Part shown: in pieces, positions 27,917 through 39,057 of the stretch
How positions within the stretch are numbered: position 1 is the first letter of the stretch
How the letters are laid out: each line of letters starts with the position of its first letter
Origin: Phenylobacterium sp. NIBR 498073
Lineage (GTDB): Bacteria; Pseudomonadota; Alphaproteobacteria; Caulobacterales; Caulobacteraceae
Direction: 5' to 3'
Length of the DNA: 64,000 bases
Assembly (NCBI RefSeq): GCF_027286305.1
Contig: NZ_CP114599.1
Span: 3,100,001 to 3,164,000 of the forward strand
Made by a program: the position numbers and the translations under genes
Notes under the pieces: model-generated
Database searches by the model: none
Seen by the model: only the letters and a program-made list of their open reading frames with translations
Told to the model about the DNA's origin: nothing

Positions 27917-28090
27917 GCTGAAACGCCCCCAGGACAGCTTCCAGCCCGTCGATGGGCCGAGTCATCGCCATCCTAGTGGCTGGACAGGGCAAATCTTGCC
28001 TTTGTGACGGACCTTCACGCATCAGCCACGCTTGCCGCCGCATCGGATCAATTTTATGCCCGGATGATATTTCGCGGAGAGACGCCATCT

Positions 28091-28651
28091 ATGGCCGATA
28101 TGCACACTGCCTTTTCTGGCCACAGAAAAATCGCCAACGGCCCGTTAGCCGTCGTCGCGCCGGCAGTGAAGGCCGCGATCGACGCCGGTGAATCCCATGT
28201 ACTTGTCTTCGACGACAAGTCCGGCCGGCAGGTGGACCTCGATCTTCGGGGAACCATGGAAGACGTGATCGCCCGCCTGGTCACGCCGACGGGCGAGCCG
28301 CCACGGGCTCCCGGAAGGGGACGGCCGAAGCTCGGCGTCACGGCCCGCGAAGTCACCCTGTTGCCATCGCATTGGGAGTGGCTAGCAGCTCAACCAGGAG
28401 GAGCTTCAGCGGCCCTACGCCGACTGGTCGACCAGGCGCGCAGGTCCGGCGGCGATGACCAGCGCCAAGCCCAGGAGGCGGCGCACCGCATCATGTTCGC
28501 CCTGGCCGGCGACTTTTCCGACTTTGAGGAGGCCACGCGGGCCTTCTACGCCGGAGACTGGGACCAGTTTCTGGCCCTCAGCGAGAACTGGCCCATTGAT
28601 CCTCGCGACTACGTGCGTGTCCTCGCAGAGCGCGCCTTTTCGACCCGATAG
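28091..28651 (+). CDS. DUF2239 family protein
   Basis: A 186-residue cytoplasmic protein of the DUF2239 family. Typical marks are AFSGHRKIANGPLA, VFDDKSGRQVDLDLRG, GRGRPKLGVTAREVTLLPSHWEWL and the C-terminal FYAGDWDQF, ENWPIDPRDYV. Function unknown; the LLPSHWEWL segment is shared with many uncharacterised homologues. The frame opens at 28004 but homologues begin near MADMHTAF, so 28091 is chosen. It borders the phage-derived block. Confidence 0.8.
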   Translation: MADMHTAFSGHRKIANGPLAVVAPAVKAAIDAGESHVLVFDDKSGRQVDLDLRGTMEDVIARLVTPTGEPPRAPGRGRPKLGVTAREVTLLPSHWEWLAAQPGGASAALRRLVDQARRSGGDDQRQAQEAAHRIMFALAGDFSDFEEATRAFYAGDWDQFLALSENWPIDPRDYVRVLAERAFSTR

Positions 28652-28673: not shown

Positions 28674-29054
28674 TCACTTCAGTCCGCCGGCACGCAGACC
28701 AAGACCGGCCGCAAACGCCGCTAGGCCAGCCGCGAACCAAGGTCCGCTCCGCGCCAGCCAGGTCCAGAACGCCGCCACGCCCTCAACACGGTCGCGCTGC
28801 GCCTCTAGCATGTCGATCCGTCCAAGGGCGCCGCGGAGCTCCACGCGTAGCGCATCCACCAGTTTGCCGGCTTCCTGAGCCTCAAGTCGCGCCAGCCGCT
28901 CTCGAACGTCGTCGACCTTGGCGGTGAGCCCCTCCAACCGCTTGGTCTGGGCTGCAACGTTGTCGCCGATCTGCTGCAGCGTCAGAATCTGCGCCTGATG
29001 CAGCGTTTCCACGAAGCCGCCGCCATTGCTCGCTTCGTTCACGATTGCCACCAC
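28674..29054 (-). CDS. Phage-block small membrane coiled-coil protein
   Basis: A 126-residue protein: a long amphipathic coiled coil (about 20-90, with repeated RLEGLTAKVDDVRERLARLE) and one C-terminal hydrophobic helix (FWTWLARSGPWFAAGLAAFAA). The GTG start overlaps the gene at 29039 by 16 bases; in-frame GTGs at 29051 and 29042 are alternatives. The shape would suit a phage accessory membrane protein (holin- or spanin-like roles were considered) but no family is recognised. Confidence 0.6.
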   Translation of the reverse strand: MVAIVNEASNGGGFVETLHQAQILTLQQIGDNVAAQTKRLEGLTAKVDDVRERLARLEAQEAGKLVDALRVELRGALGRIDMLEAQRDRVEGVAAFWTWLARSGPWFAAGLAAFAAGLGLRAGGLK

Positions 29055-29290
29055 CGCCGCCTTCCGCCGCCGACCCCGCCGATGCCCCCGCCCCGCGAGG
29101 AAGGAAGGGAGACAGGGGGTAGGAAGTCACCGGCCTCGTGCGCCGCCCCCTTCCACTCCGGCGCCGCCAGCGTCCTGCTGATCTTCTGGAGGTGATCGGC
29201 GCGGGTCAGGCCGTCCGCCAGCGGGGTATTCAGATACTTATCGGTACGTGACCATGCCGCTTTGAGGTTCGGACCAAGCTTAAAGACCAT
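29039..29290 (-). CDS. Phage-block small hypothetical protein
   Basis: An 83-residue protein starting MVFKLGPNLKAAW and ending in a Gly/Arg/Trp-rich tail (GGVGGGRRRWWQS). Its ATG comes one base after the stop of the 309-residue gene, so it is probably real, but the low-complexity tail hints that the original C-terminus was lost or frameshifted. Function unknown. Confidence 0.5.
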   Translation of the reverse strand: MVFKLGPNLKAAWSRTDKYLNTPLADGLTRADHLQKISRTLAAPEWKGAAHEAGDFLPPVSLPSSRGGGIGGVGGGRRRWWQS

Positions 29291-29291
29291 G

Positions 29292-30221
29292 TCAGGTGCC
29301 TCCAGCGGACGGCTTCGGGCCCAGGGACGCCACCGAACTTGCGATGCTGGCGATCTGTCCCAGCATGTCGAGAAGGCTGGGGCTCTCGGTCGTCTTGGTG
29401 TTCGACGTACCCGTCGAGGTCGAATTCTGCCCTTGGAAGAGCTGCAGCGGCAGCCCGGAGAACATGTCGATTTGGGTGCCGAGTTGGGTGGTCGGCGCAT
29501 TACGGATCGCCTGATCCACGCCCCGCAACTGCGCGCCAAGCGACGACTGAGCGGCCACGTTGGCCCGTAGTGAATTGTCTCGATCAAGCGCCAGTTGCCC
29601 GCGCATGTGGCGATCCTGGATTGCGTTCTGGGCGTTTGCGAGCGACGCCTGCTGGCGACGCTCCGCATCCTGGCTCGCCAGGCCCGCGCTGGTCGTGAAC
29701 ATGTCCTTGAGCAGATTGGCGCTGACCGAGCTGCGCCCCTGATTCAGCTGCCGCTCGGTCATGCTGCGCGTCAGCGCAGAACCCGAACCGTTGAACGCGC
29801 TGCTTCCCGCTAGTTCAAGGTCCTGCGTCGCACGGGTGGCGTCAGCGCTCGCGTCATAGTCCGCCAAAGCCGCATCGACAACCTGGCTACGATATGGATT
29901 CTGATATGCGCCTAGGTTGTCGAGCAGACTGGCGGCCCCGACAGTCGGGGTCGGCTGCGACAAGAGGTTGGCGAACCACTCATCCCCCCCCACCGGCTGG
30001 CCTCCCCCGCCGACGCCGGCCCCCAACCGCGCAGCACCGGCACTCGCTTGCCGTTCAAGCTCCGATAGCGGCGCCACCAGTGAGTAAGGATCCATCCCGC
30101 CCAGGCGTTGGATTCCGGTATTCAGGCTTTGCGCCGTATGAGCGACCCACTCTGGATTGGTCGGCGTGGTCGACGACGTACTGCTCGTACTCGTCTGGCT
30201 GGTCGATTTTCTCTTACCCAT
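29292..30221 (-). CDS. Phage virion protein (ejection/tail-associated type)
   Basis: A 309-residue Ser/Thr/Gln/Ala-rich protein without signal peptide. The opening MGKRKSTSQTSTSSTSSTTP, the NPYRSQVVDAALADYDASAD segment and the helical SMTERQLNQGRSSVSANLLKD section look like proteins found beside tail genes in podovirus-like phages, where such proteins are thought to be ejected with DNA. The assignment rests on pattern memory, not on a catalytic motif. Confidence 0.6.
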   Translation of the reverse strand: MGKRKSTSQTSTSSTSSTTPTNPEWVAHTAQSLNTGIQRLGGMDPYSLVAPLSELERQASAGAARLGAGVGGGGQPVGGDEWFANLLSQPTPTVGAASLLDNLGAYQNPYRSQVVDAALADYDASADATRATQDLELAGSSAFNGSGSALTRSMTERQLNQGRSSVSANLLKDMFTTSAGLASQDAERRQQASLANAQNAIQDRHMRGQLALDRDNSLRANVAAQSSLGAQLRGVDQAIRNAPTTQLGTQIDMFSGLPLQLFQGQNSTSTGTSNTKTTESPSLLDMLGQIASIASSVASLGPKPSAGGT

Positions 30222-30554
30222 TCAAAGCGTCCTTTTGAGCTCGCGCCCCGCAGGGCGGTAGCCGTATCGGCGCAGCACCCGGATCCACCCCGGCCGCCCG
30301 TCGATCGTGATGTGTGAACAGCCCTGGCCCCGCGCCCACGCCTCAAGCCCCGGCCGTAGACCGAGGATGTCAGTCAAGCTTCCGCCCGCCAGCCAGATGT
30401 GCAGGCAGCGATCGCTCCCTTGTGCGACGAGTTCAGTAACGAGCGCCGAGTGTTCTGCGAGCCAAAGCTGTGCACGGCCCGAGGCGAGTTCGTCGATCAG
30501 TTCGTCAACGGTTGCATCGACCAACGCTGGCCGAAGCCAATCCAAGTAGGTCAA
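30222..30554 (-). CDS. GNAT-like phage protein
   Basis: A 110-residue protein with a partial GNAT look: a central beta strand CLHIWLAGG, then a helix (LRPGLEAWARGQGCSHITIDG) and GWIRVLRRYGYRP, which recalls the C-terminal part of acetyltransferases. Similar small GNAT-like proteins occur within tail gene sets of alphaproteobacterial phages. The full acetyl-CoA loop (Q/RxxGxG/A) is not seen, so catalysis is doubtful. TTG start overlaps the large gene's stop by 4 bases. Confidence 0.5.
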   Translation of the reverse strand: MTYLDWLRPALVDATVDELIDELASGRAQLWLAEHSALVTELVAQGSDRCLHIWLAGGSLTDILGLRPGLEAWARGQGCSHITIDGRPGWIRVLRRYGYRPAGRELKRTL

Positions 30555-33277
30555 CGGTCGCCGGCCGCAGCCAGATCGACAGCGATTTGCCCGAACCGCG
30601 CGAAGGCCGGGATCGACGCGCCCTCGAACTTTAGCTTGAACAGCCGCCCGCTGGCCCGGACATCGACCTTGTCCTGGCCGGCAGCCACCGGGTACGGCCC
30701 CTTGGTCGTCTCGTCGCCCTGCGGCTTGAACCTGCTCGTGATCGAGACATTGATCGGCCCGATCTGGCTTTTCACGTCCGGCCAGAGCCCCAGCACCAGC
30801 GCGGTCTGCTCCTCGTTGAGATACTGGTCGGCGGTCTCGATCGACCAGGTCAGGGCCTGGCCGTCCGCGGACTGCCCGCGCTCGTGCCAGTAGACGTTGC
30901 CACTGGCGGTCACGCCGATCGGGTCTTGCGATGGCCCAGCGTCGACCATGGCGGTGCGCGCCATCCGGCCGCGGTGCCAGCCCTGTCCGACCAGAGAAAG
31001 CGCCACGTAGCGGCTGTTCTCGGTCCCGTCGCGCTCGTCCGGATAGTCCCAGCGCACTTCGGAAAAGCGCGAGTTCGATGCGGCGGTGATCTTGTCGGCC
31101 TGGCCGGGGGTGAGGTTGCCGAACAGGTCGTCGCGGATCGCGCAGGCGATCGGCTCAACGCCGCCGCCGAGCACATACCGATAGAACTGGCCGTCGACGC
31201 CCAGCCAGTAGGCCGCCTGGCCCACCACCACGGCGGCGTTCGGCCCGATCAGACCGCAGTTGGTCGCCACCCGGTCGAAGCGCCAGGGCGTCGCCAGCGC
31301 GCCGATGAACATGCCGAGGAACAGACTATGGTTGGTCCAGACGAGAAGGTTGGAACCGGCCACCCGGCCGGCGACGATCCGACCGCCGCCGGGCAACACA
31401 TATTCTCGCGCCGTCGTGCCCGCAGCGGTATGCCACTCAGTGTTCTTGCGCACCGACGAGTGACGGATGCACAGGGGGTCGAAGGCGTTCGACGCCTCCT
31501 GATTGCAGCCGAGCGCGAACACCATGTCCTGCGGCGCCACCAGCATGTGGGTGACCTTAGCCGGCGCGTTGGTCAGCGGCGCAGCCTTGTCGGCGCTGAC
31601 ATTGGCCCAATCGTAGATCGTCCCGCCACGCGGATTGGCCAGCAGGTTCTGCCCCCAGGCGGCCAGCGCCCAGGTGCGCGGGAAGTAGTCGGCCGTCGAA
31701 GGCTCTGAATAGCCCCCGACGCTGTAAGCGCCGGTGCCGTAGCCCGCCCCGCCGGTGCCGTCGATCGCGCCGGCCGCAAACGCCGCTTGCGGACCGAAGG
31801 TCATGCCGACCCCGCCACTCGCCGGCACTGCCACGGCCACCGCCGCGCCACCGCCGGTGGCCGTGCTCGTGGCCCCAGAGGTGAAGTTGAACCGATAGCT
31901 GTTGGCGTCGATCCGGGTGGCGACGAAGGTCCCGTTCGGGGTGATGCCGCCGACCGCCGAAGCCCCGGACACCGTGACGCTGGTTCCGGTGCTGATGTTG
32001 TGGCCGGTCTCGGTGACGGTCACAGTCGGCGAGCCGTTGATCACGCTGAATGGATTGCTCCCCAGCGTCTTAGAGAGCTGCGCGTTCGAGCCGGCGGTGA
32101 TCGTGAAGGTGTTGGCGTCGGTCACGGTGACGGTGTAGGCGCCGCTCGGTATCAGCCGCCCAACTCCGATTCCGCCGCTGACCACCACGCTGTTGCCCGT
32201 CGTCAGGCCGTGCGCGGTCTTCACGACCGTCATCAGCGCCGAACCGTTGGTCACGGTGACCCCAGCGTCGATCAGCGCAAAGCCCGGCTTGGCCAGGGTC
32301 GGCGTGATGTCGTACAGCGCGCCGCCAAGCCAGACCTGCAGCGCCGAATGCGTGCCGAAGGCGATGTTCAGCGTCGGCAGACTGTCGGTCCACTGGAACA
32401 CCGTGCGGCAGACGCCAGTGAGCAGGCTCGCCGTCAGGCTCTCCCAGCCGCCGATCACCTGCGGGAAGTCCCGGTCGAACCGCACGTTGTTGCTGTCGGC
32501 CCAGCGGCCGGCCGCCGAATAGGTGGTGTCGTCGCCGTTGAGGCCCGGCGGGATTTTCAGGGGAACGCGCATCAGCGCCGGCCGGTACAAGTTCGCGACG
32601 ATCAAGCTAAAGCCGCCGAGACCCGAGTAGCGTTGTAGAACCCCGCTGCCGCCACCCGCTCCGAAACCGGCAGCGGTCGGCACGCCGTTGCCGCCTGTTG
32701 GTGTTCCTCCACTGGATGGAATGACGTTGCCGAACAGGTCAGAAAAGCCGCCCGGGCCACCGCCAAAGCCGGCGCCCGACGAGCTGCCGCCAAACTCCCC
32801 GGCCTCGCCTGCCCCGCCGCCGTATCGGTTGATCTGAAACCCCGTCGCCGAGCTGCGCGCTGCATTCCCGGAGGTGGTTCCGGCCCGCCCGCCTTGCGCC
32901 GTGCCGATCAGTCGGCCGTCGATTGAAACTGTCGCGTCCGCACCGCTGATCCCGGCAACATCCGACCCGGGTGAACCAACAGACGTTCCGCCCACGCCGC
33001 CGGTCCACGAAAGAACTGCACGGGCCGGTATCTGAAGGCGCGAATATCCGGCGGCGCCCCCGCCCCCGCCCCCGCTCGAGGCTCCGGAAACGCTCGCGCC
33101 GCCCCCGCCAGCCCCGTACGCGAAAATGTCGGCGATAACGTCCTCCGGGACCACGAGTGATCCCGAAAGCGATGTGATCACCTGCCGAACCAGAAACATC
33201 GGCGCGCCCGAGGACGCGAGCGGCGAGCGGCCCAGCGTCATTTGTCCAAGCGGCGCTCCGCCGAGCGAGGCGGCCAT
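30551..33277 (-). CDS. Phage tail protein: glycine-rich fibre domain fused to propeller-type tail protein
   Basis: A 908-residue structural protein in two parts. Residues about 30-230 are a glycine-rich tail-fibre domain (AYGAGGGGASVSG, SSGGGGGGAAGY, GGGPGG) ending in the strand GGFSLIVANLY. Residue 236 begins MRVPLKIPPGLNGDD, which looks like the natural start of a podovirus tail-stabilisation/propeller protein, with RWADSNNVRF, GGWESL, FLGMFIGAL and a final RFGQIAVDL. Two beta repeats like the E1_FCCH type sit at about 339-397 and 411-468. No ribosome site precedes Met236, so one fused product is likely. Confidence 0.7.
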   Translation of the reverse strand: MAASLGGAPLGQMTLGRSPLASSGAPMFLVRQVITSLSGSLVVPEDVIADIFAYGAGGGGASVSGASSGGGGGGAAGYSRLQIPARAVLSWTGGVGGTSVGSPGSDVAGISGADATVSIDGRLIGTAQGGRAGTTSGNAARSSATGFQINRYGGGAGEAGEFGGSSSGAGFGGGPGGFSDLFGNVIPSSGGTPTGGNGVPTAAGFGAGGGSGVLQRYSGLGGFSLIVANLYRPALMRVPLKIPPGLNGDDTTYSAAGRWADSNNVRFDRDFPQVIGGWESLTASLLTGVCRTVFQWTDSLPTLNIAFGTHSALQVWLGGALYDITPTLAKPGFALIDAGVTVTNGSALMTVVKTAHGLTTGNSVVVSGGIGVGRLIPSGAYTVTVTDANTFTITAGSNAQLSKTLGSNPFSVINGSPTVTVTETGHNISTGTSVTVSGASAVGGITPNGTFVATRIDANSYRFNFTSGATSTATGGGAAVAVAVPASGGVGMTFGPQAAFAAGAIDGTGGAGYGTGAYSVGGYSEPSTADYFPRTWALAAWGQNLLANPRGGTIYDWANVSADKAAPLTNAPAKVTHMLVAPQDMVFALGCNQEASNAFDPLCIRHSSVRKNTEWHTAAGTTAREYVLPGGGRIVAGRVAGSNLLVWTNHSLFLGMFIGALATPWRFDRVATNCGLIGPNAAVVVGQAAYWLGVDGQFYRYVLGGGVEPIACAIRDDLFGNLTPGQADKITAASNSRFSEVRWDYPDERDGTENSRYVALSLVGQGWHRGRMARTAMVDAGPSQDPIGVTASGNVYWHERGQSADGQALTWSIETADQYLNEEQTALVLGLWPDVKSQIGPINVSITSRFKPQGDETTKGPYPVAAGQDKVDVRASGRLFKLKFEGASIPAFARFGQIAVDLAAAGDR

Positions 33278-33690
33278 CAGTAGAAGCCGCCCTCGCAGCG
33301 CACCACGACGCCGTTAGCGATGGCCTGACCGTTGGCGACCGCTAGGCCGACGCCGGCCTCGAGTTCCATCGGCGCGGCCAGCGAGAGGCCGAAATCGGTC
33401 CTCGGGTTCGCCACAGTGGCGCTCGGTGTGACCGTCGCCATCAGCACGCTGTCGATGAGGGTCAGCGTCGATCCGACCTTCTTGTACAGCTGGATGTTGT
33501 TGGCCGAGGCGACCGCGGCGCGTGGGATCGCATATAGCCGGGTCAACCGGGCGCCGTTGACGTTGTCGCTGGCAAGCAGGAGATCGACGGTCGACGTCGG
33601 GTTGTGGAACGCGGTTTCGGCCGCCGTCAGCACCGCGGTGCGCGAAAACGGCGTCTGCGGCAGGACCGCTTTGTTCTGCGTGATAGCCAT
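33277..33690 (-). CDS. Phage-block structural hypothetical protein
   Basis: A 137-residue protein (MAITQNKAVLPQTPFSRTAV...) without signal peptide or membrane helix, predicted beta-rich, ending VVRCEGGFY. Its stop shares a base with the start of the 908-residue gene (TGATG). It looks like small head- or tail-decoration proteins of phage but no family is named with confidence. Confidence 0.6.
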   Translation of the reverse strand: MAITQNKAVLPQTPFSRTAVLTAAETAFHNPTSTVDLLLASDNVNGARLTRLYAIPRAAVASANNIQLYKKVGSTLTLIDSVLMATVTPSATVANPRTDFGLSLAAPMELEAGVGLAVANGQAIANGVVVRCEGGFY

Positions 33691-33702
33691 AAGGTGCCTC
33701 GG

Positions 33703-34347
33703 TTAGAAGATGAGCGCCATGACGAGGGCGAAGCCCTGCTGCTCGTCCACGCTGGCCGGATAGTCGGCGATGTCGGCGGTGACGATCGACTGCCAGGAGG
33801 CTGCGGCGCCATCCGAGCGGATGTACTGGCCCGCGGTTCCGGGCCCCTGCCCAGGCAGATTGACCTGGTTGAACGCCAGGCTGTCGGCGTAGGCCTTCGT
33901 CGCCGCGTCCGTGCCACTGATCGGAGTTCCGACGCCGGTGATGCGCGCGCCGAGATAGTCCGTGAACTGCACACGCCGCACGTTGGCGCCGTCGCTGACC
34001 ACCCATCCGACCTCGCCGGGCTTCACGGTCGCGTTCGTCGCGCCGCCGGTCGTGATCGAGACGTCGCCGCTCGCGCCATTGCGCACCGTGTAGAGCTTCT
34101 CGACGGCCGGAATGGTGATCGCCCCGCCCGAGCCGCTGGTGACGTCCAGGAAGGCGCTGCGTGCCTCGTCGTCCGCCCCGTTGGCGGTCGTCAGGGTCTT
34201 CGGACCGCTGAGCGCGAACGCGACCCGCTTGGCGATGGCGTCCTCAAGCAGTTGGTCGTCGGTGTTGAGGACCAGGCCCCAGGTGTTGAGGTTGTCGCCC
34301 GGCGCCTGGAAGTTCAGGCGCAGGCGGCTCGAATAGGTCGAAGGCAT
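33703..34347 (-). CDS. Phage tail/fibre-associated protein
   Basis: A 214-residue protein opening MPSTYSSRLRLNFQAPGDNL followed by NTWG, then repeated beta-like segments (FALSGPKTLTTANG, ITIPAVEKLYTVRNGASGDV) and a C-terminal KAYADSLAFNQVNLPGQGP region. This resembles fibre-associated proteins common in Caulobacterales and rhizobial prophages (recalled). The ORF extends to 34443, but the MPSTY start overlaps the previous stop by one base and is preferred. Confidence 0.65.
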   Translation of the reverse strand: MPSTYSSRLRLNFQAPGDNLNTWGLVLNTDDQLLEDAIAKRVAFALSGPKTLTTANGADDEARSAFLDVTSGSGGAITIPAVEKLYTVRNGASGDVSITTGGATNATVKPGEVGWVVSDGANVRRVQFTDYLGARITGVGTPISGTDAATKAYADSLAFNQVNLPGQGPGTAGQYIRSDGAAASWQSIVTADIADYPASVDEQQGFALVMALIF

Positions 34348-34586
34348 CAGATCGGCGCTCCAGTATCCTGCCTGATCCAGGCAGCGCCGTTCGAGACGGC
34401 CAGAATGTCGAGGTCGGTGACCCGCACGACGCCGTTGGGCCAACTGGCGGCCGGCGGCAGGTCGGCTTGCGCGCAGGGGAAAACCTGGCTGGGATGGGTC
34501 GGCTGCTGCAGCTCGCGGATCGCGTCCGCGACGGCTTGGAAGAACGGGCGCGGGTCGGTCTTGAGGTCGACGGGAGCGATCAGCAT
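34347..34586 (-). CDS. Phage-block small protein
   Basis: A 79-residue protein (MLIAPVDLKTDPRPFFQAVA...ILAVSNGAAWIRQDTGAPI). The C-terminal segment (VRVTDLDILAVSNGAAWI) looks like short domains attached to phage fibre proteins. Its ATG comes a few bases after the large fibre gene stop, and its TGA overlaps the next start. Function unknown; its packed position supports a real gene. Confidence 0.6.
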   Translation of the reverse strand: MLIAPVDLKTDPRPFFQAVADAIRELQQPTHPSQVFPCAQADLPPAASWPNGVVRVTDLDILAVSNGAAWIRQDTGAPI

Positions 34587-34589
34587 GCG

Positions 34590-36038
34590 TTAGCTCCAGA
34601 TTTCCGGGGTGTCGCCCACCGGGGTCCAGGTCTCGGACTTGCTGGCCTTCGGGTTCCAGGTCTCAGGGGTGCCCGGAACCGGCTGCCAGCCCTGACCGCC
34701 CGAATAGCGCAGCGTCGCGGCTTGACCGTTCAGGCTGTAGGCCGCTGGGGCGCCCCGCAGGATGTGGACCCAACCCCAGCCGATCTGGCGGCCTGAGAGG
34801 CTGAAGGACGCTCCCGAAGCCGCCAGCTGGCGCGTCCAGCGCAGACCGGCGGCCAGGCGCGACCACACGAACGGTTCAGGCGCCGCGCGCAGCTTGCGGC
34901 CAATCCGCAGGCCCGCCGGCTGCCGCGTGAGCGTGAGCGCGCCCGTGGCGGCCGAGATCGTGCGGCCCGCCACCGTGCGGATCAGCCCCGCCGCGATCCC
35001 CGTCATCGTGAAGGCCTGGGCGCTGACACGCAGTTTGAGGCCCCGGGCGACACGGGCCGAGAACCCTGCCAGGCCATAGCCGCGAACGTCCGCCCGGACC
35101 CGATAGCCTTTGCGGATCGCGGCATTGATCCCGGCAAGCGTGAAGCTGCGCACAGCGATCGGCAGCTTTCGGGTGACACGGGTCGCCGCCGCCTTGCCCG
35201 ACAGGATTATGGCGCCGGTGGCCGCGGTGAGCGTCTGGCCGCCCGCAGAGCCCAGGTCCAGGGCAATGAACGCCGACGAGGCCAGCAAGGCGACGTACTC
35301 GCCTTCCGGGCTGGTGTTGATGTTAAGGGCGATCTTGCGCGATCCGGCCGCGTATGAGCGCAGCCCTGCGAACGACGCGGCCTGTCCGCGGTCATTGTTG
35401 GCCGAGTAGTTTCGCGCGACCGCGGAGGCTGCATCGCCGCTATCGGCCAGCACCGACGTCACCACCCGCGACGATGTGGTCACATTGTTGAAATACCAGC
35501 TCCCGATCAGCAGGTGCGGGTTCGCCGAGACGGTCGGCGTGATGCTCAAGGCCTCAAACGGCGTAGCGGTGGACAGCTCGGCAGAAAAGCTCGCCTGCCG
35601 CGCGACGTGCGCCGCCTCGAAATCCGCCAACTTCAGGATCAGCAGCCGGTTCTGCGCATACCCGACTTCGAATGTGTTTTGGTTCGAACGCCCCTGCCAC
35701 GCCACGGTGCGGCTGACGCCGCCAGTAGCCTCCGAATAGACCCGCTGCTTGTTCAGCGGCACGAGGTTCTTTTGGCCGGCGGTGATATCGGCGTGCCCGG
35801 CCATGGCGGGTTCGGTATTGGTCTCGGCCGTCCCGTCCCAGACGAACTTCCCATAGGCCGACGTCGTGGTGGCGTAGTTGTCGGTCATCGAGTGGGCGAG
35901 GACGAGATAGTCGCCGACCGCCGGACTGAACGAGGTCGAGAGCACGTCGGCCCAGGTCGTCGTACCGCCTGCGGTGACCGCCTGGCGGGCGACGCTCTCG
36001 GCGTAGACGTCGCCCGCCCCCATCCGCAGCACCGTCAA
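34590..36038 (-). CDS. Phage tail-fibre-like protein with 22-residue repeats, 5' truncated
   Basis: At least 482 residues. The N-terminal part is beta-rich (WADVLSTSFSPAVGDYLVLA) and the C-terminal part holds about eight repeats of 22 residues, then a Trp-rich tail (WQPVPGTPETW, SETWTPVGDTPEIWS). The marked start is a weak TTG. The same frame stays open to 36188 with no start codon, reading RIEWGAYAGFFKVTGTGA, a plausible protein interior. The true N-terminus therefore seems to be lost at the junction with the S24 fragment, so this may be a pseudogene or a remnant expressed from a secondary start. Confidence 0.65.
   Translation of the reverse strand: MTVLRMGAGDVYAESVARQAVTAGGTTTWADVLSTSFSPAVGDYLVLAHSMTDNYATTTSAYGKFVWDGTAETNTEPAMAGHADITAGQKNLVPLNKQRVYSEATGGVSRTVAWQGRSNQNTFEVGYAQNRLLILKLADFEAAHVARQASFSAELSTATPFEALSITPTVSANPHLLIGSWYFNNVTTSSRVVTSVLADSGDAASAVARNYSANNDRGQAASFAGLRSYAAGSRKIALNINTSPEGEYVALLASSAFIALDLGSAGGQTLTAATGAIILSGKAAATRVTRKLPIAVRSFTLAGINAAIRKGYRVRADVRGYGLAGFSARVARGLKLRVSAQAFTMTGIAAGLIRTVAGRTISAATGALTLTRQPAGLRIGRKLRAAPEPFVWSRLAAGLRWTRQLAASGASFSLSGRQIGWGWVHILRGAPAAYSLNGQAATLRYSGGQGWQPVPGTPETWNPKASKSETWTPVGDTPEIWS
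34695..35235 (-). repeat. 22-residue (66-bp) tandem repeats within the fibre gene
   Basis: About eight degenerate units, mostly 22 residues, with a pattern like aromatic-x-Leu-x-Gly-x-x-Ala-x-Leu-x-x-x-Arg-x-Leu. Examples are RSFTLAGINAAIRKGYRVRA, RGYGLAGFSARVARGLKLRV and EPFVWSRLAAGLRWTRQLAA. The unit probably forms a beta-strand repeat building a fibre shaft. Boundaries are approximate. Confidence 0.7.
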
Positions 36039-36144
36039 CCGGCGATTGCGGCAGACGATGCTGTTGCCGTTGGTCTCGGCCTTGACCTCAAGAGCGAGGG
36101 CGAGCGCCGCGCCGGTCCCGGTGACCTTGAAGAACCCCGCGTAG

Positions 36145-36429
36145 GCCCCCCATTCTATGCGCGGCTTGGCCGACGATGGCGCACTGATCTATTTCGAGGA
36201 TCAGCGCAGCTCCCCCAGCCCGGACATGCTGGGCCAGGTGGTGGTGGTCGAGACCGACACCGACGAGGTGCTGGTCAAACGCCTGTTGCGCGGCTCAGGG
36301 CCAGGACTCTACGATCTTGAGAGCGTCGCTGGGCCCACCCGCCGCGACGCCCGGCTGCGCTGGGCCGCGCACATCACCGCAATCATCCCACCCTACCAGG
36401 CGCGCCGGATCATCCTCAGCGAAGGTTGA
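36145..36429 (+). pseudogene. S24/LexA-like phage repressor, C-terminal fragment
   Basis: 94 in-frame codons of an S24 peptidase-fold (LexA/CI-like) repressor with the N-terminal HTH missing. The frame opens right after TAG (36142-36144) with APHSMRGLADDGALIYFEDQ, where Ser in HSM matches the family's catalytic serine. The catalytic lysine is in VLVKRLLRGSG. The end, RWAAHITAIIPPYQARRIIL, is typical of these repressors. No start codon or ribosome site precedes the fragment's true domain, so it is a 5'-deleted remnant marking the phage edge. Confidence 0.8.
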
Positions 36430-36477
36430 GCGCGGTCGCCGCGCCTTGAACCGTCAGGTATCGGTTGCCGAAGAAGT

Positions 36478-36490
36478 GTATATATTATAC
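36478..36490. promoter_or_regulatory. A/T-rich palindrome upstream of the 36500 gene
   Basis: GTATA-TAT-TATAC, a perfect inverted repeat in an A/T-rich island just 10 bases before the ATG at 36500 and about 50 bases after the repressor fragment's stop. It could be an operator or extended -10 region of a promoter. A link to the lost repressor is suggested by position only. Confidence 0.55.
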
Positions 36491-36499
36491 ATTCCTCGA

Positions 36500-36901
36500 A
36501 TGAACGAGCTTGACCGGCTGATCGTCGCCGAAGCCGCCGCCGAGGCGGCGCGGACAACGCTCGCGCAGCGCGAACTGAGCCGCTGCCGAGGCGTCTCCTG
36601 GTCCGGAATGGCGCCGGAGCCTCGGGCCCCGGCCCCAGCCGCCGCGCTGCACGCGCGCGCCCGGGCGCGGCTCGCCGCCCGCGAGGCCTGGCGGGCCGGC
36701 GCCGAGGGCGGCTTCATCACCGGCCTCTCCGACTGTCAGGCGGCGGCGCGCGAGGCTTTCGCGACTGCCGAACGCGCCCGCGCCGGCGCCTCGCGCGGCG
36801 AACCCGCCGACTGGCGGCTGAAGGTGCTCGACGAACTGGCCGCGCAGGCCCGCGCGCTCGCGGCCGGCGTCCGCCAGGCCCGGCGCGCGCTGACGCCCTA
36901 G
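36500..36901 (+). CDS. Hypothetical Ala/Arg-rich helical protein
   Basis: A 133-residue cytoplasmic protein, strongly helical (MNELDRLIVAEAAAEAARTT, then HARARARLAAREAWRAGAEG). An A/T-rich probable promoter lies just upstream, which supports a real start at 36500; the upstream open frame to 36317 overlaps the repressor fragment. No family recognised. It may belong to the phage block or be a host gene. Its stop overlaps the stop of the opposite 62-residue gene. Confidence 0.6.
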   Translation: MNELDRLIVAEAAAEAARTTLAQRELSRCRGVSWSGMAPEPRAPAPAAALHARARARLAAREAWRAGAEGGFITGLSDCQAAAREAFATAERARAGASRGEPADWRLKVLDELAAQARALAAGVRQARRALTP

Positions 36902-37086
36902 CAGCGCGCGCCGTTCTGCGCGCGCCCCGGCCGCCAGGACCGCGCCGCCCGGCGTTCCCGGATCTCGTCATGCAGCATGTCGGCCAACTCCAGCACCTGC
37001 TCCTGCGACATTCGCCGCGTCGCGCCGCGCACCTCCGCGGCGAGGCGGAACATCAGGTCGGACGGTAAGCCTCGCTCGGCGCCCAT
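36898..37086 (-). CDS. Small hypothetical protein
   Basis: A 62-residue helical protein (SDLMFRLAAEVRGATRRMSQ, EQVLELADMLHDEIRERRAA). Starts with ATG at 37086. Composition is plausible for a small DNA- or protein-binding helical protein; no family recognised. Convergent with the 133-residue gene (4-base overlap). Confidence 0.5.
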   Translation of the reverse strand: MGAERGLPSDLMFRLAAEVRGATRRMSQEQVLELADMLHDEIRERRAARSWRPGRAQNGARC

Positions 37087-37160
37087 CGTCGTTGCCTCAC
37101 ATTAGCCCAGCCACTCTTCCAATTCGCGAACCTGGAGACGCGTTCCCGTTAATCGTGCAT

Positions 37161-37189
37161 TTGACTTAGATAGTTCGCAAACCTAACTA
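37161..37189 (+). promoter_or_regulatory. Sigma-70-type promoter of the MarR gene, possibly leaderless
   Basis: TTGACT (-35, 37161-37166) and TAACTA (-10, 37184-37189) with 17-base spacing. The expected transcription start falls on or next to the ATG at 37196, and no Shine-Dalgarno lies upstream. The mRNA could therefore be leaderless. A TAGTT/AACTA imperfect palindrome (37171-37189) overlaps it and could be a MarR site. Confidence 0.6.
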
Positions 37190-37195
37190 CATGTC

Positions 37196-37633
37196 ATGCC
37201 GAATTCGCCAGAGACGCTCGCCCTCGCCGACAGCCTTCGCGCACCGCTCCTGCGGGCGGCGCGGCGGCTGCGCCAGGAGGCCCAGCGCGCAGGCAGCTCT
37301 GCGCTCGACGCGCTGATCCTCGGCTACATCCGCCGGCGCCCCGGTGTCGGCGTCAGCGAGCTGGCCCAGGCCGAGCAGATCTCGCGCCCCAGCATGAGCG
37401 GCCACATCAAGCGGCTGGAGGCCGCGGGCTGGATCCAGCGCTTCGGCGACCAAGAGGACGGGCGTCGCTCAGGCCTGCAGATCACGCCAGCGGGCGAAGC
37501 CCAGCTCGACGCGGTCCGCCAGCGCCGCAACGACTGGCTCGCCGACCGTCTGGCGCGGCTGACGCCCGAGGCCCGCGCCGCCCTCGCCGCAGCCGGCCCG
37601 CCGCTGCTGCAACTGCTGGAGCAGGACCAGTGA
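37196..37633 (+). CDS. MarR-family transcriptional regulator
   Basis: A 145-residue winged-helix regulator: SSALDALILGYIRRRPGVGV, recognition helix region SRPSMSGHIKRLEAAGWI and wing FGDQEDGRRSGLQITPAG. The stop overlaps the efflux gene start by 4 bases (GTGA). It probably represses itself and the transporter until a toxic ligand binds, as is common for MarR-MFS pairs. Confidence 0.92.
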   Translation: MPNSPETLALADSLRAPLLRAARRLRQEAQRAGSSALDALILGYIRRRPGVGVSELAQAEQISRPSMSGHIKRLEAAGWIQRFGDQEDGRRSGLQITPAGEAQLDAVRQRRNDWLADRLARLTPEARAALAAAGPPLLQLLEQDQ

Positions 37634-39057
37634 GCCCGGTGGACCAGCCGCTTGGAGACAAGGGCTCCACCGCCACGACCCGCGGCTGGGTGATCCCGGC
37701 GATCATCGGGTCGGCCATGCTCATGCAGACGATGAACGCGACGGTGATCGCCAACGCGCTGCCGACCATGGCCGTGGCGCTGGGCGAGCCGCCGCTGCGC
37801 CTGAACCTCGCCATCACCATGTTCCTGCTGGCCTCGGCGGTTTTCCTGCCGATCAGCGGCTGGGTCGCCGACAAGTTCGGCGCCAAGCGGATCTTCATGG
37901 TCTCGATGGTGCTTTTCGCGCTCGCCTCGGCGGCCTGCGGTTTCGCCCAGGACCTGACCCAGCTGGTCATCGCCCGCATCTTCCAGGGCGTCGGCGGGGC
38001 CATGATGGCCCCCGTCGGCCGGCTCGTCCTGCTGCGCACTACGCCCAAGGAGGAGTTGGTCGGCGCGATGTCGGTGATGACCATGCCGGCCCTGCTCGGC
38101 CCGGTCATCGGGCCGATCGTCGGCGGCGCGATCGTCACCTTCGCCGACTGGCGCTGGATCTTCTTCCTGAGCATCCCCGTCGCCGTGGTCGGGCTGCTGC
38201 TGGTCATGCGCTACGTGCCCAACGTCAAGGAGCAGGAGGTCTCGCCCATCGACTGGAAGGGCACGCTGCTCACCGGCCTTGGGCTGGCCGGCCTGATCTT
38301 CGGCTTCGAGAACCTCGGCCGCGGCCTGCTGCCCGACGTCCTGGTTGCGGCGATGTTCTTCGGCGGTCTGGCGGCGCTGGTCGTCTACTGGCGCCACGCG
38401 CGGGGCAATCCGCACGCCATCCTCGATCTCTCCGTGTTCCGGCTGCAGACCTTCCGCGCCTCGGTGATCGGCGGCGCCTTCATGCGCATCGCCATGGGCG
38501 CCACCCCGTTCATGCTCGCCATGCTGCTCCAGGTCGGCTTCGGCCTATCGGCGATCCAAGCGGGCCTGATGACCTTCATCTCAGCCGCGGGGGCCCTGGT
38601 GATGAAGACGACGGCCCCGCCGATCCTGCGCCGCTTCGGCTTCCGCTCGGTGCTGGTCGTCAACGCCCTGATCGTCGCCGTCAGCTTCGTGGCCTATGGC
38701 CTCTTCACCCCGACCACGCCGCACTGGCTGATCCTGTTGATCCTTGGCATCGGCGGCTTCTTCCGCTCGCTGCACTTCACCAGCCTCAACGGCCTGGCCT
38801 TCGCTGACATCGGCCAGGACCGCATGAGCCGCGCTTCGACCACGTCCTCAATGGTGCAACAGCTTGTGCAGTCGGTCGGTATTGGGCTGGCCGCGGCGCT
38901 GATGCACTTCTTCATGGTCGCACGCGGCGAAGACCAGTTGACCGCCGCGGCGATCTCGCCCGCTTTCGTAGTCACCGGCCTGATCACCCTGATCTCGCTG
39001 GTCTTCTTCATCCCGCTGCCCCGCGACGCCGGCGACGAGATGAACGGCCGCAAGTGA
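37630..39057 (+). CDS. MFS drug efflux transporter (DHA2/EmrB-QacA type)
   Basis: A 475-residue inner-membrane protein with about 14 hydrophobic segments. The family marks are TVIANALPTMAVALG near the first helix, SGWVADKFGAKRIF (loop 2-3) and RIFQGVGGAMMAPVGRL. The DHA2 family exports hydrophobic drugs or cations with proton antiport. Start GTG overlaps the marR-like stop. No EmrA adaptor follows, so it may act alone or with another partner. Confidence 0.9.
   Translation: MSPVDQPLGDKGSTATTRGWVIPAIIGSAMLMQTMNATVIANALPTMAVALGEPPLRLNLAITMFLLASAVFLPISGWVADKFGAKRIFMVSMVLFALASAACGFAQDLTQLVIARIFQGVGGAMMAPVGRLVLLRTTPKEELVGAMSVMTMPALLGPVIGPIVGGAIVTFADWRWIFFLSIPVAVVGLLLVMRYVPNVKEQEVSPIDWKGTLLTGLGLAGLIFGFENLGRGLLPDVLVAAMFFGGLAALVVYWRHARGNPHAILDLSVFRLQTFRASVIGGAFMRIAMGATPFMLAMLLQVGFGLSAIQAGLMTFISAAGALVMKTTAPPILRRFGFRSVLVVNALIVAVSFVAYGLFTPTTPHWLILLILGIGGFFRSLHFTSLNGLAFADIGQDRMSRASTTSSMVQQLVQSVGIGLAAALMHFFMVARGEDQLTAAAISPAFVVTGLITLISLVFFIPLPRDAGDEMNGRK

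Follow-up and report, generated by a model that had tools for sequence, protein, structure and literature searches.

The 64,000-nucleotide stretch of Phenylobacterium DNA analyzed here (the window, G000:C1:3100001-3164000, taken from the complete, 4.29-Mb genome G000) contains nine open frames at 28674-36140, all directed leftward (p1, orf83 and p2 to p8), with a fragment of an S24 repressor gene at their right edge. These tail-side phage genes are probably best explained as the remnant of a P22-like, vertically inherited cluster of the gene transfer agent (GTA) type, lost here by one deletion. GTAs are former phages kept by bacteria as DNA-moving organs. A single deletion of ~20.4 kb produced the arrangement in the window, which can be regarded as practically certain. 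The deletion scar is modest on its own, and the parent cluster is the interesting part.

The intact counterpart of the region is L073, in the Phenylobacterium metagenome-assembled genome (MAG) G060 (contig JAGOQB010000003.1). Over 15.7 kb it aligns to the window (86.9% DNA identity), up to window position 36156 (L073:7078), within the 614-amino-acid p8 of L073 (L073:6842-8686). The p8 gene of the window (34590..36156, minus strand), which is fibre-like, is therefore without its 5' ~79 codons. On the S24 side, the window aligns to G060 from 36151 onward, with 93% identity, within an intact S24 gene of 214 amino acids. The 3' fragment of this LexA-like repressor (36151..36429, plus strand) begins at His123, has its first ATG at 36157 and is 98% identical to residues 123-214 of the intact G060 protein. 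As p8 homology ends at 36156 and S24 homology starts at 36151, one junction in CATTC(T) cuts both genes. In this overlap (CATTCT, 36151..36156) both parents match, which resembles deletion via a very short shared sequence. It can be observed that the p8 frame is open up to 36140 without an ATG, its longest start being TTG at 36038, and that the S24 frame opens after a TAG at 36142-36144, just as the first-pass annotation had described from the letters. Its proposal that one deletion removed both 5' ends is borne out, since the relative carries the element intact at this locus and shows both missing ends.

In G060 the two endpoints are 20.4 kb apart. Between them are located the structural and packaging genes (orf141, adaptor, coat, scaffold, portal, TerL and TerS), toxin-like and immunity-like frames, a RES toxin and its Xre-like partner, a holin-like gene, a glycosyl-hydrolase-19-like gene (under the Pfam cut-off), orf193, orf69 and the first 122 codons of S24. 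G060 is a MAG, and the listed completeness of G087, in which S24 has the same place, is 70%. Among the inspected genomes the p8-S24 junction occurs only in the window, and is not a normal gene order of many genomes. The nine leftward genes had been said to lack terminase, portal, integrase and lysis genes, and this agrees with a family-library scan (Pfam, PHROGs) of all frames except orf83: none of these families matched the eight scanned frames at E<=0.1, nor was any tube, sheath or baseplate family found in them. TerL, portal and coat gave no match at E<=1e-3 anywhere in the complete genome of the window, and a split cluster, with its head genes relocated elsewhere in the genome, was rejected on this basis. 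Insertion of an island into S24, with a paralogue at 3,064,086 as the other half, was also rejected. The paralogue is not a hybrid: neither of its halves is close to the S24 of the locus, the identities to G060 being 60% and 75%. This second, divergent S24 belongs to a region (G000:C1:3064086-3083400, L023/L024) ~46-64 kb left of the cassette, near conjugation-like frames (by eye) and an integrase at 3082215, and possibly represents an integrative element. The closest PF00589 match in the genome of the window is ~46 kb outside the cassette.

The intact cluster comprises TerS, TerL, portal, scaffold, coat, an SU10-type adaptor, tail and fibre genes, and holin-like, endolysin and spanin-like genes. 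Beside it lies a divergent module of the S24 repressor and the small genes orf115, orf69 and orf193. Family matches were strong for the portal (P22_portal, E 4.4e-198), the coat (P22_CoatProtein, PF11651, E 3.1e-37), the adaptor (SU10_adaptor, E 4.2e-29) and TerS (Sf6-type, E 1.1e-44), and the intact S24 homologue in G005 matches PF00717. The gene tables of relatives come from our own gene calling and contain some wrong calls, chiefly antisense. In G095 the cluster spans ~13 kb from TerL to the spanin-like gene. In Phenylobacterium kunshanense BUT-10, the part of the cluster covered by locus L084 extends from scaffold to endolysin. When 138 of 151 unassigned frames in the loci of 12 genomes were scanned, the matches listed included TerS, toxin-antitoxin, regulatory and metabolic families, and no polymerase, primase or helicase appeared among the families listed (the best 25 of 55 and the best 25 of 76).

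A coat orthologue without internal stops was found in 44 of 100 other genus genomes, as one full-length copy per genome except for a partial one in G011; a second match, weak and partial, is present in G006 and G113. The 45th coat-bearing genome, G068, has an unrelated 33% match, the coat of another phage. A separate P22-like element of the genus lies there (L138, G068:C2:80001-100000), with coat identity of 31-33% and portal identity of 39%. Portal and TerL were present in 12 and 11 of 36 relatives, respectively, every one in the genus. The gp10-like part of p4 occurred in 20 of 35 same-genus relatives searched and in none of 24 genomes from the other families of the order, and G004 gave a weak match to the glycine-rich part of p4 only. 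Of 385 alphaproteobacterial genomes drawn, three had portal matches at E<=1e-30, with at most 43% identity. When 84,980 species genomes were scanned for a p4 pattern, 44 loci were obtained; their labels were Phenylobacterium, Caulobacteraceae/Caulobacterales or unresolved Alphaproteobacteria/Proteobacteria, and in one case Myxococcota.

It is with high confidence that the cluster is described as immobile and vertically inherited at one chromosomal place. Flanks were counted in 33 of 44 loci, those with at least 6 kb beyond p4. The lysis-side flank is DUF2239 and/or murA-DUF2948-hisD in 31 of the 33, the exceptions being L100 and L112, and the DUF2239 gene stands on this side in 20. In the window the same left boundary is formed by the DUF2239 host gene (28004..28651, plus strand; Pfam PF09998, E 3.3e-69), convergent with the cluster. 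The other flank is likewise recurrent, with S24 divergent from orf115-orf69-orf193 and then marR-MFS. S24 is followed by marR and MFS in G005, G060, G095, G104, G105 and G111, with small or PhyH genes in between, and in the window the marR and MFS host genes (37196..39057, plus strand) mark the right boundary of the locus. For 21 taxa, 12 of 18 splits are common to the trees of the element and of rpoB; when labels were shuffled 2000 times, the number of common splits averaged 0.34 and never exceeded 4. Mantel tests of seven element genes against rpoB gave rho values of 0.38-0.61, with 0 or 1 of 999 permutations as high. Purifying selection on the virion genes is demonstrated by dN/dS (the ratio of nonsynonymous to synonymous substitution rates), which in nine genome pairs is mostly 0.07-0.4. 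A fragment of a freshly integrated prophage was rejected, since the trees track the host and the checked clusters contain no integrase. Accordingly, the first-pass idea of a phage remnant holds insofar as the region is the remnant of a deletion; the parent is an immobile cluster inherited with the genus, and no recently integrated prophage.

A related alternative would make the parent an ordinary P22-like prophage, by now defective, which entered the same site repeatedly and is decaying, with the window as one decayed copy. This is considered unlikely. The agreement between element and host trees is at odds with repeated entry, as is the limit of one full-length coat per genome with 44 orthologues free of stops, although many genomes lack the cluster or have a reduced form of it and the copy in G011 is decaying. 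No tyrosine integrase (PF00589) was found inside the cluster in any of 11 genomes, in a search that did not include serine recombinases, and the nearest one, in G010, lies ~4.6 kb beyond the lysis end. Furthermore, katG and similar host genes stand between S24 and TerL in G005 and G095, and an integrating unit would not be expected to include them. In favour of the alternative there are also viral contigs with portals 60-70% identical, some of which carry early genes such as DnaB or RusA.

In IMG/VR, a pattern scan gave 140 portal relatives, 80 of which were analyzed. In 55 of the 80 the portal is at least 67% identical. By portal identity, we read 53 of these 55 (not L232 and L262) as pieces of the Phenylobacterium cluster that were deposited under viruses, with direct evidence, in the form of attached S24 and orf193, in only five. 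These cluster-like "viral" contigs are among L209-L262 and L283. As many such public contigs look like parts of a chromosomal cluster, counts of Phenylobacterium viruses may be inflated. In L262 the order is early-type genes (one an AAA_25 ATPase), homologues of orf193 (38%) and orf69 (46% over 52 residues), TerS, TerL and portal. This arrangement implies that the orf193-orf69 module is derived from a phage, and by position the pair would be a pre-terminase late regulator. In the TerL analysis a single genus clade is not present in the best tree, yet it is not rejected (p 0.385). Two further groups of contigs were observed. L264, L267, L270, L275, L278, L285 and L286 have portal and coat 57-65% identical and an unrelated TerL (29-38%), while the TerL of L263, L265 and L266, whose portals place them near that viral group, is of the cluster type, pointing to a likely swap of the packaging motor.

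With regard to function, we lean slightly towards the parent cluster being a candidate GTA of the P22 type, its activity being predicted. A phage source early in the history of Phenylobacterium would have given rise to a P22-like virion cluster that was then inherited vertically at one place. The S24 repressor, a protein of 214 amino acids with helix-turn-helix and S24 domains that adjoins the cluster, would hold the module silent. On its relief, orf193, weakly similar to DUF6456/GafA, and its partners would turn on the cluster, resulting in cell lysis and the release of short-tailed particles with host DNA. In the window, the one ~20.4-kb deletion between p8 and S24, with its overlap of 5-6 bp, took the packaging, head, lysis and regulator genes and the DNA-binding half of the repressor, after which no particle could be built. 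The usual GTA type is mostly missing from the genus. The RcGTA marker PF13547 (GTA_TIM) was found in three of 101 genus genomes and in none of the 75 good ones (at least 90% complete, at most 5% contaminated), the Caulobacter control being positive, and it was not found in the genome of the window.

Regarding the regulators, the DUF6456 match of orf193 is collinear, residues 56-180 corresponding to positions 7-132 of the 136 in the profile. A profile search of orf193 against PDB sequences reached a best E of 0.29, and no plasmid match was obtained. For orf115, no Pfam match was better than 0.08.

A number of observations weigh against the interpretation as an inherited GTA. The DUF6456 match occurs in one of 21 orf193 sequences, with E 0.013, under the Pfam cut-off, and the AlphaFold model of orf193, with a mean pLDDT (predicted local distance difference test) of 84.7, found nothing in the PDB by Foldseek at E<=0.001. 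A P22-size head holds ~43 kb and could accommodate the whole cluster, so that particles might carry the cluster itself, contrary to the usual GTA pattern. The toxin-like cargo of some clusters also fits an antagonistic use. The coat gene is absent from more than half of the searched genomes. Mantel tests of hisD, murA and MFS against rpoB were not significant (118, 285 and 174 of 999; n = 12, 7 and 6), and the element gave rho 0.31 against hisD (38 of 999), which indicates that the distances are noisy. The highest dN/dS values were 0.80 (p3) and 0.70 (p6), and hisD has 0.07-0.11 in three of the pairs, implying weaker constraint on the element than on a core enzyme. Finally, the portal, TerL and coat of L232 are ~70% identical to those of the cluster, and the portal tree separates genus rows from viral rows with a support of only 58.

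The possibility that particles of the intact cluster mainly deliver toxins to competitors, with the toxin and immunity genes as payload, appears improbable. The cargo between TerL, portal, scaffold and coat varies (L123:3208-11494 in G060; L030:14574-19619 in G005). G060 has a RES toxin domain (E 4e-28) beside an Xre-like frame recognized by eye, and toxin-like and immunity-like frames were noted in both G060 and G005, although toxin labels beyond RES were assigned by eye and there is little cargo in G095. Moreover, TerL and portal are under purifying selection, which argues for the packaging of DNA.

The remnant itself is very likely inert and probably silent. A P22-type tail is built on the portal and adaptor, and with these gone the tail has nothing to stand on. 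The native upstream region was lost, and a search of 35800-37300 detected no sigma-70-like promoter, which is a weak test. At 32565-32590 the glycine-rich fibre and gp10-like frames, separate in L073, have been fused by a small indel into a frame of 908 amino acids. In comparison with L073, all frames of the window are open, with dN/dS of 0.08-0.41, and polarized changes in four genes gave 32 replacement and 69 silent changes on the window branch and 28 and 72 on the G060 branch (p = 0.64). Low dN/dS and equal branch rates are explained by a recent deletion as well as by a kept function. Known tailocins possess long tails with a tube or sheath. Therefore a continued use of the tail genes alone, as a tailocin-like or tail-fibre product, which the first-pass annotation had left open on account of the retained frames, is highly improbable, in view of the lost p8 start, the fused frames, the absence of adaptor, portal and lysis genes, and the loss of most of these genes from G022 and G030 as well.

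Loss of the cluster has occurred in several other species, through different deletions. G077 and G066 are without virion genes, G072 retains S24-orf69-orf193 beside a truncated DUF2239, G024 retains TerS-TerL, and G030 retains p2-p1. In G022 and G023, similarity to S24 starts at His123 (of GHSM), just as it does in the window, the few earlier matches looking like chance. This shared endpoint is located at 36151-36156 in the window, ~9949-9951 in L185 (G022) and ~10131 in L186 (G023). The junction partners are p8 in the window, orf83 in G022 and sequence from the lysis side in G023, the final ~150 bp ahead of the G023 junction being unassigned. An ancestral deletion shared by G000, G022 and G023 is rejected by the flank tree (p-AU, from the approximately unbiased test, of 2.5e-8 for {G000,G022} and 5.9e-4 for {G000,G022,G023}), in which relatives with intact S24 stand in between. 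The three deletions at one S24 codon are thus phylogenetically independent. In G030 and G121 the S24 fragments start from ~residue 150. Inspection of repeats and of synonymous-site and codon conservation at the S24 endpoint revealed nothing that explains why it is shared; the coincidence could point to a site of recurrent breakage or to selection for a truncated repressor. Other stages of loss were also seen. A decaying copy in G011 (G011:C1, ~2,750,000-2,764,000) has TerL in two pieces, one TAG in the portal and only 122 residues of coat, and L206 (G107:C26:71001-90000) has TerL (94%) beside katG, with no coat match in the genome, another partial loss.

The broader history, on which our opinion is evenly balanced, would be as follows. 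Phenylobacterium lost the RcGTA-type GTA of its order and has independently domesticated a short-tailed GTA of the P22 type under a phage-derived, LexA/GafZ-like switch. Its species repeatedly drop the cluster, three deletions having one fixed endpoint in the repressor gene, and the window is one such loss. If this is true, a P22-type GTA in a genus without the usual type means that an unrelated phage can take over the role of this organ. The genus would also offer a natural experiment on the gain, upkeep and loss of GTAs, with the coat gene in 44 of 100 genomes and deletion scars in several others. The window provides one deletion scar for which an intact sister is available, and the shared endpoint, if real, would lead to a defined break site.

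The remaining features of the window are given here. The p1 gene (28674..29054, minus strand), at the end of the tail block, encodes a coiled coil and a C-terminal hydrophobic segment (by eye), with same-place homologues of 69-75% identity in six loci of relatives; its lone stray match, phrog_10 "major head protein" (E 0.0097), lies mostly over the coiled-coil part. The small cluster gene orf83 (29039..29290, minus strand) has its counterpart at L073:13983-14234, with dN/dS of 0.14. From its position, p2 (29292..30221, minus strand), with homologues in relatives, probably encodes an internal or ejection-type virion protein. The small phage protein p3 (30222..30554, minus strand; TTG start) matches phrog_22172 (function unknown, E 2.4e-10) and is weakly acetyltransferase-like (phrog_1249, E 0.021). 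In p4 (30551..33277, minus strand), the gp10-like stabilization protein (~30551-32572) is fused in frame to the upstream glycine-rich fibre frame (~32573-33277). It matches phrog_3287 (E 1.7e-56), described as "virion structural protein" and placed under head and packaging in PHROGs, and its relatives in phage records are annotated as stabilization protein. The virion-cluster protein p5 (33277..33690, minus strand) has homologues in relatives. The fibre-type protein p6 (33703..34347, minus strand) matched phrog_31104 (E 9.2e-7) and, among tail-fibre families, where its matches are weak, phrog_26630 (E 2.9e-4). The small tail-side protein p7 (34347..34586, minus strand) has homologues immediately following the adaptor gene in relatives. 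No useful family match in Pfam or PHROGs was obtained for p1, p2, p5, p7 and p8. To the right of the S24 fragment, orf133 (36500..36901, plus strand) is its conserved downstream neighbour, with 95% identity in G060.

Comparison with known systems places the remnant and its parent as follows. The window resembles R/F-type tailocins in having phage tail genes without head genes, but differs in that tube, sheath, baseplate and lysis families are missing from its eight scanned genes. The parent resembles P22/Sf6-like podophages in its portal, coat, scaffold, Sf6-like TerS and gp10-like stabilization protein, and differs from them in its fixed locus, host-like inheritance, absence of an integrase inside the checked clusters and absence of replication families among the matches listed for cluster frames. 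The viral contigs L262 and L232 have TerL and portal 67-71% identical to those of the parent. L262 also has the orf193-orf69 pair ahead of TerS, as in the parent module, but together with the AAA_25 ATPase and early-type genes, while L232 differs in having a NusG-like gene on a 51-kb contig. In a survey of literature titles and abstracts, mostly not full texts and not covering subscription papers, no P22-like or Phenylobacterium GTA surfaced. The GTA classification of 2022 proposed three families, according to the portion of that source drawn on here (PMC9662315). Like CcGTA/RcGTA of Caulobacter and Rhodobacter (Rhodogtaviriformidae), the parent is a virion cluster that is compact and immobile, descends together with its host and has been lost repeatedly. 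Excerpts of the GTA-Hunter study report RcGTA-like clusters in 78% of Caulobacterales operational taxonomic units (PMC6821227), and loss of GTAs in alphaproteobacteria is already known from extracts of another paper (PMC10883770), a pattern into which the scar in the window fits. The CcGTA/RcGTA systems combine a LexA/S24-like repressor with small activators, and the parent would have a comparable module. As far as the excerpted descriptions go, RogA is a LexA/S24-like repressor of 213 amino acids (PMC9632790), to which S24 is likened by size and domains, not by sequence, and gafA is annotated as DUF6456 (PMC9765227, PMC9638019). In contrast to RcGTA, the parent has a P22-type portal and coat, regulators beside the cluster and no PF13547, and its particles are predicted only. 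In the passages available on BaGTA (Bartogtaviriformidae, Bartonella), this is a second independently domesticated alphaproteobacterial GTA, as the parent would be, with a main cluster of ~14 kb typed by its HK97-type coat protein (PMC9662315). On that description the two are set apart by their coats, P22_CoatProtein in Phenylobacterium and the HK97 type in BaGTA.

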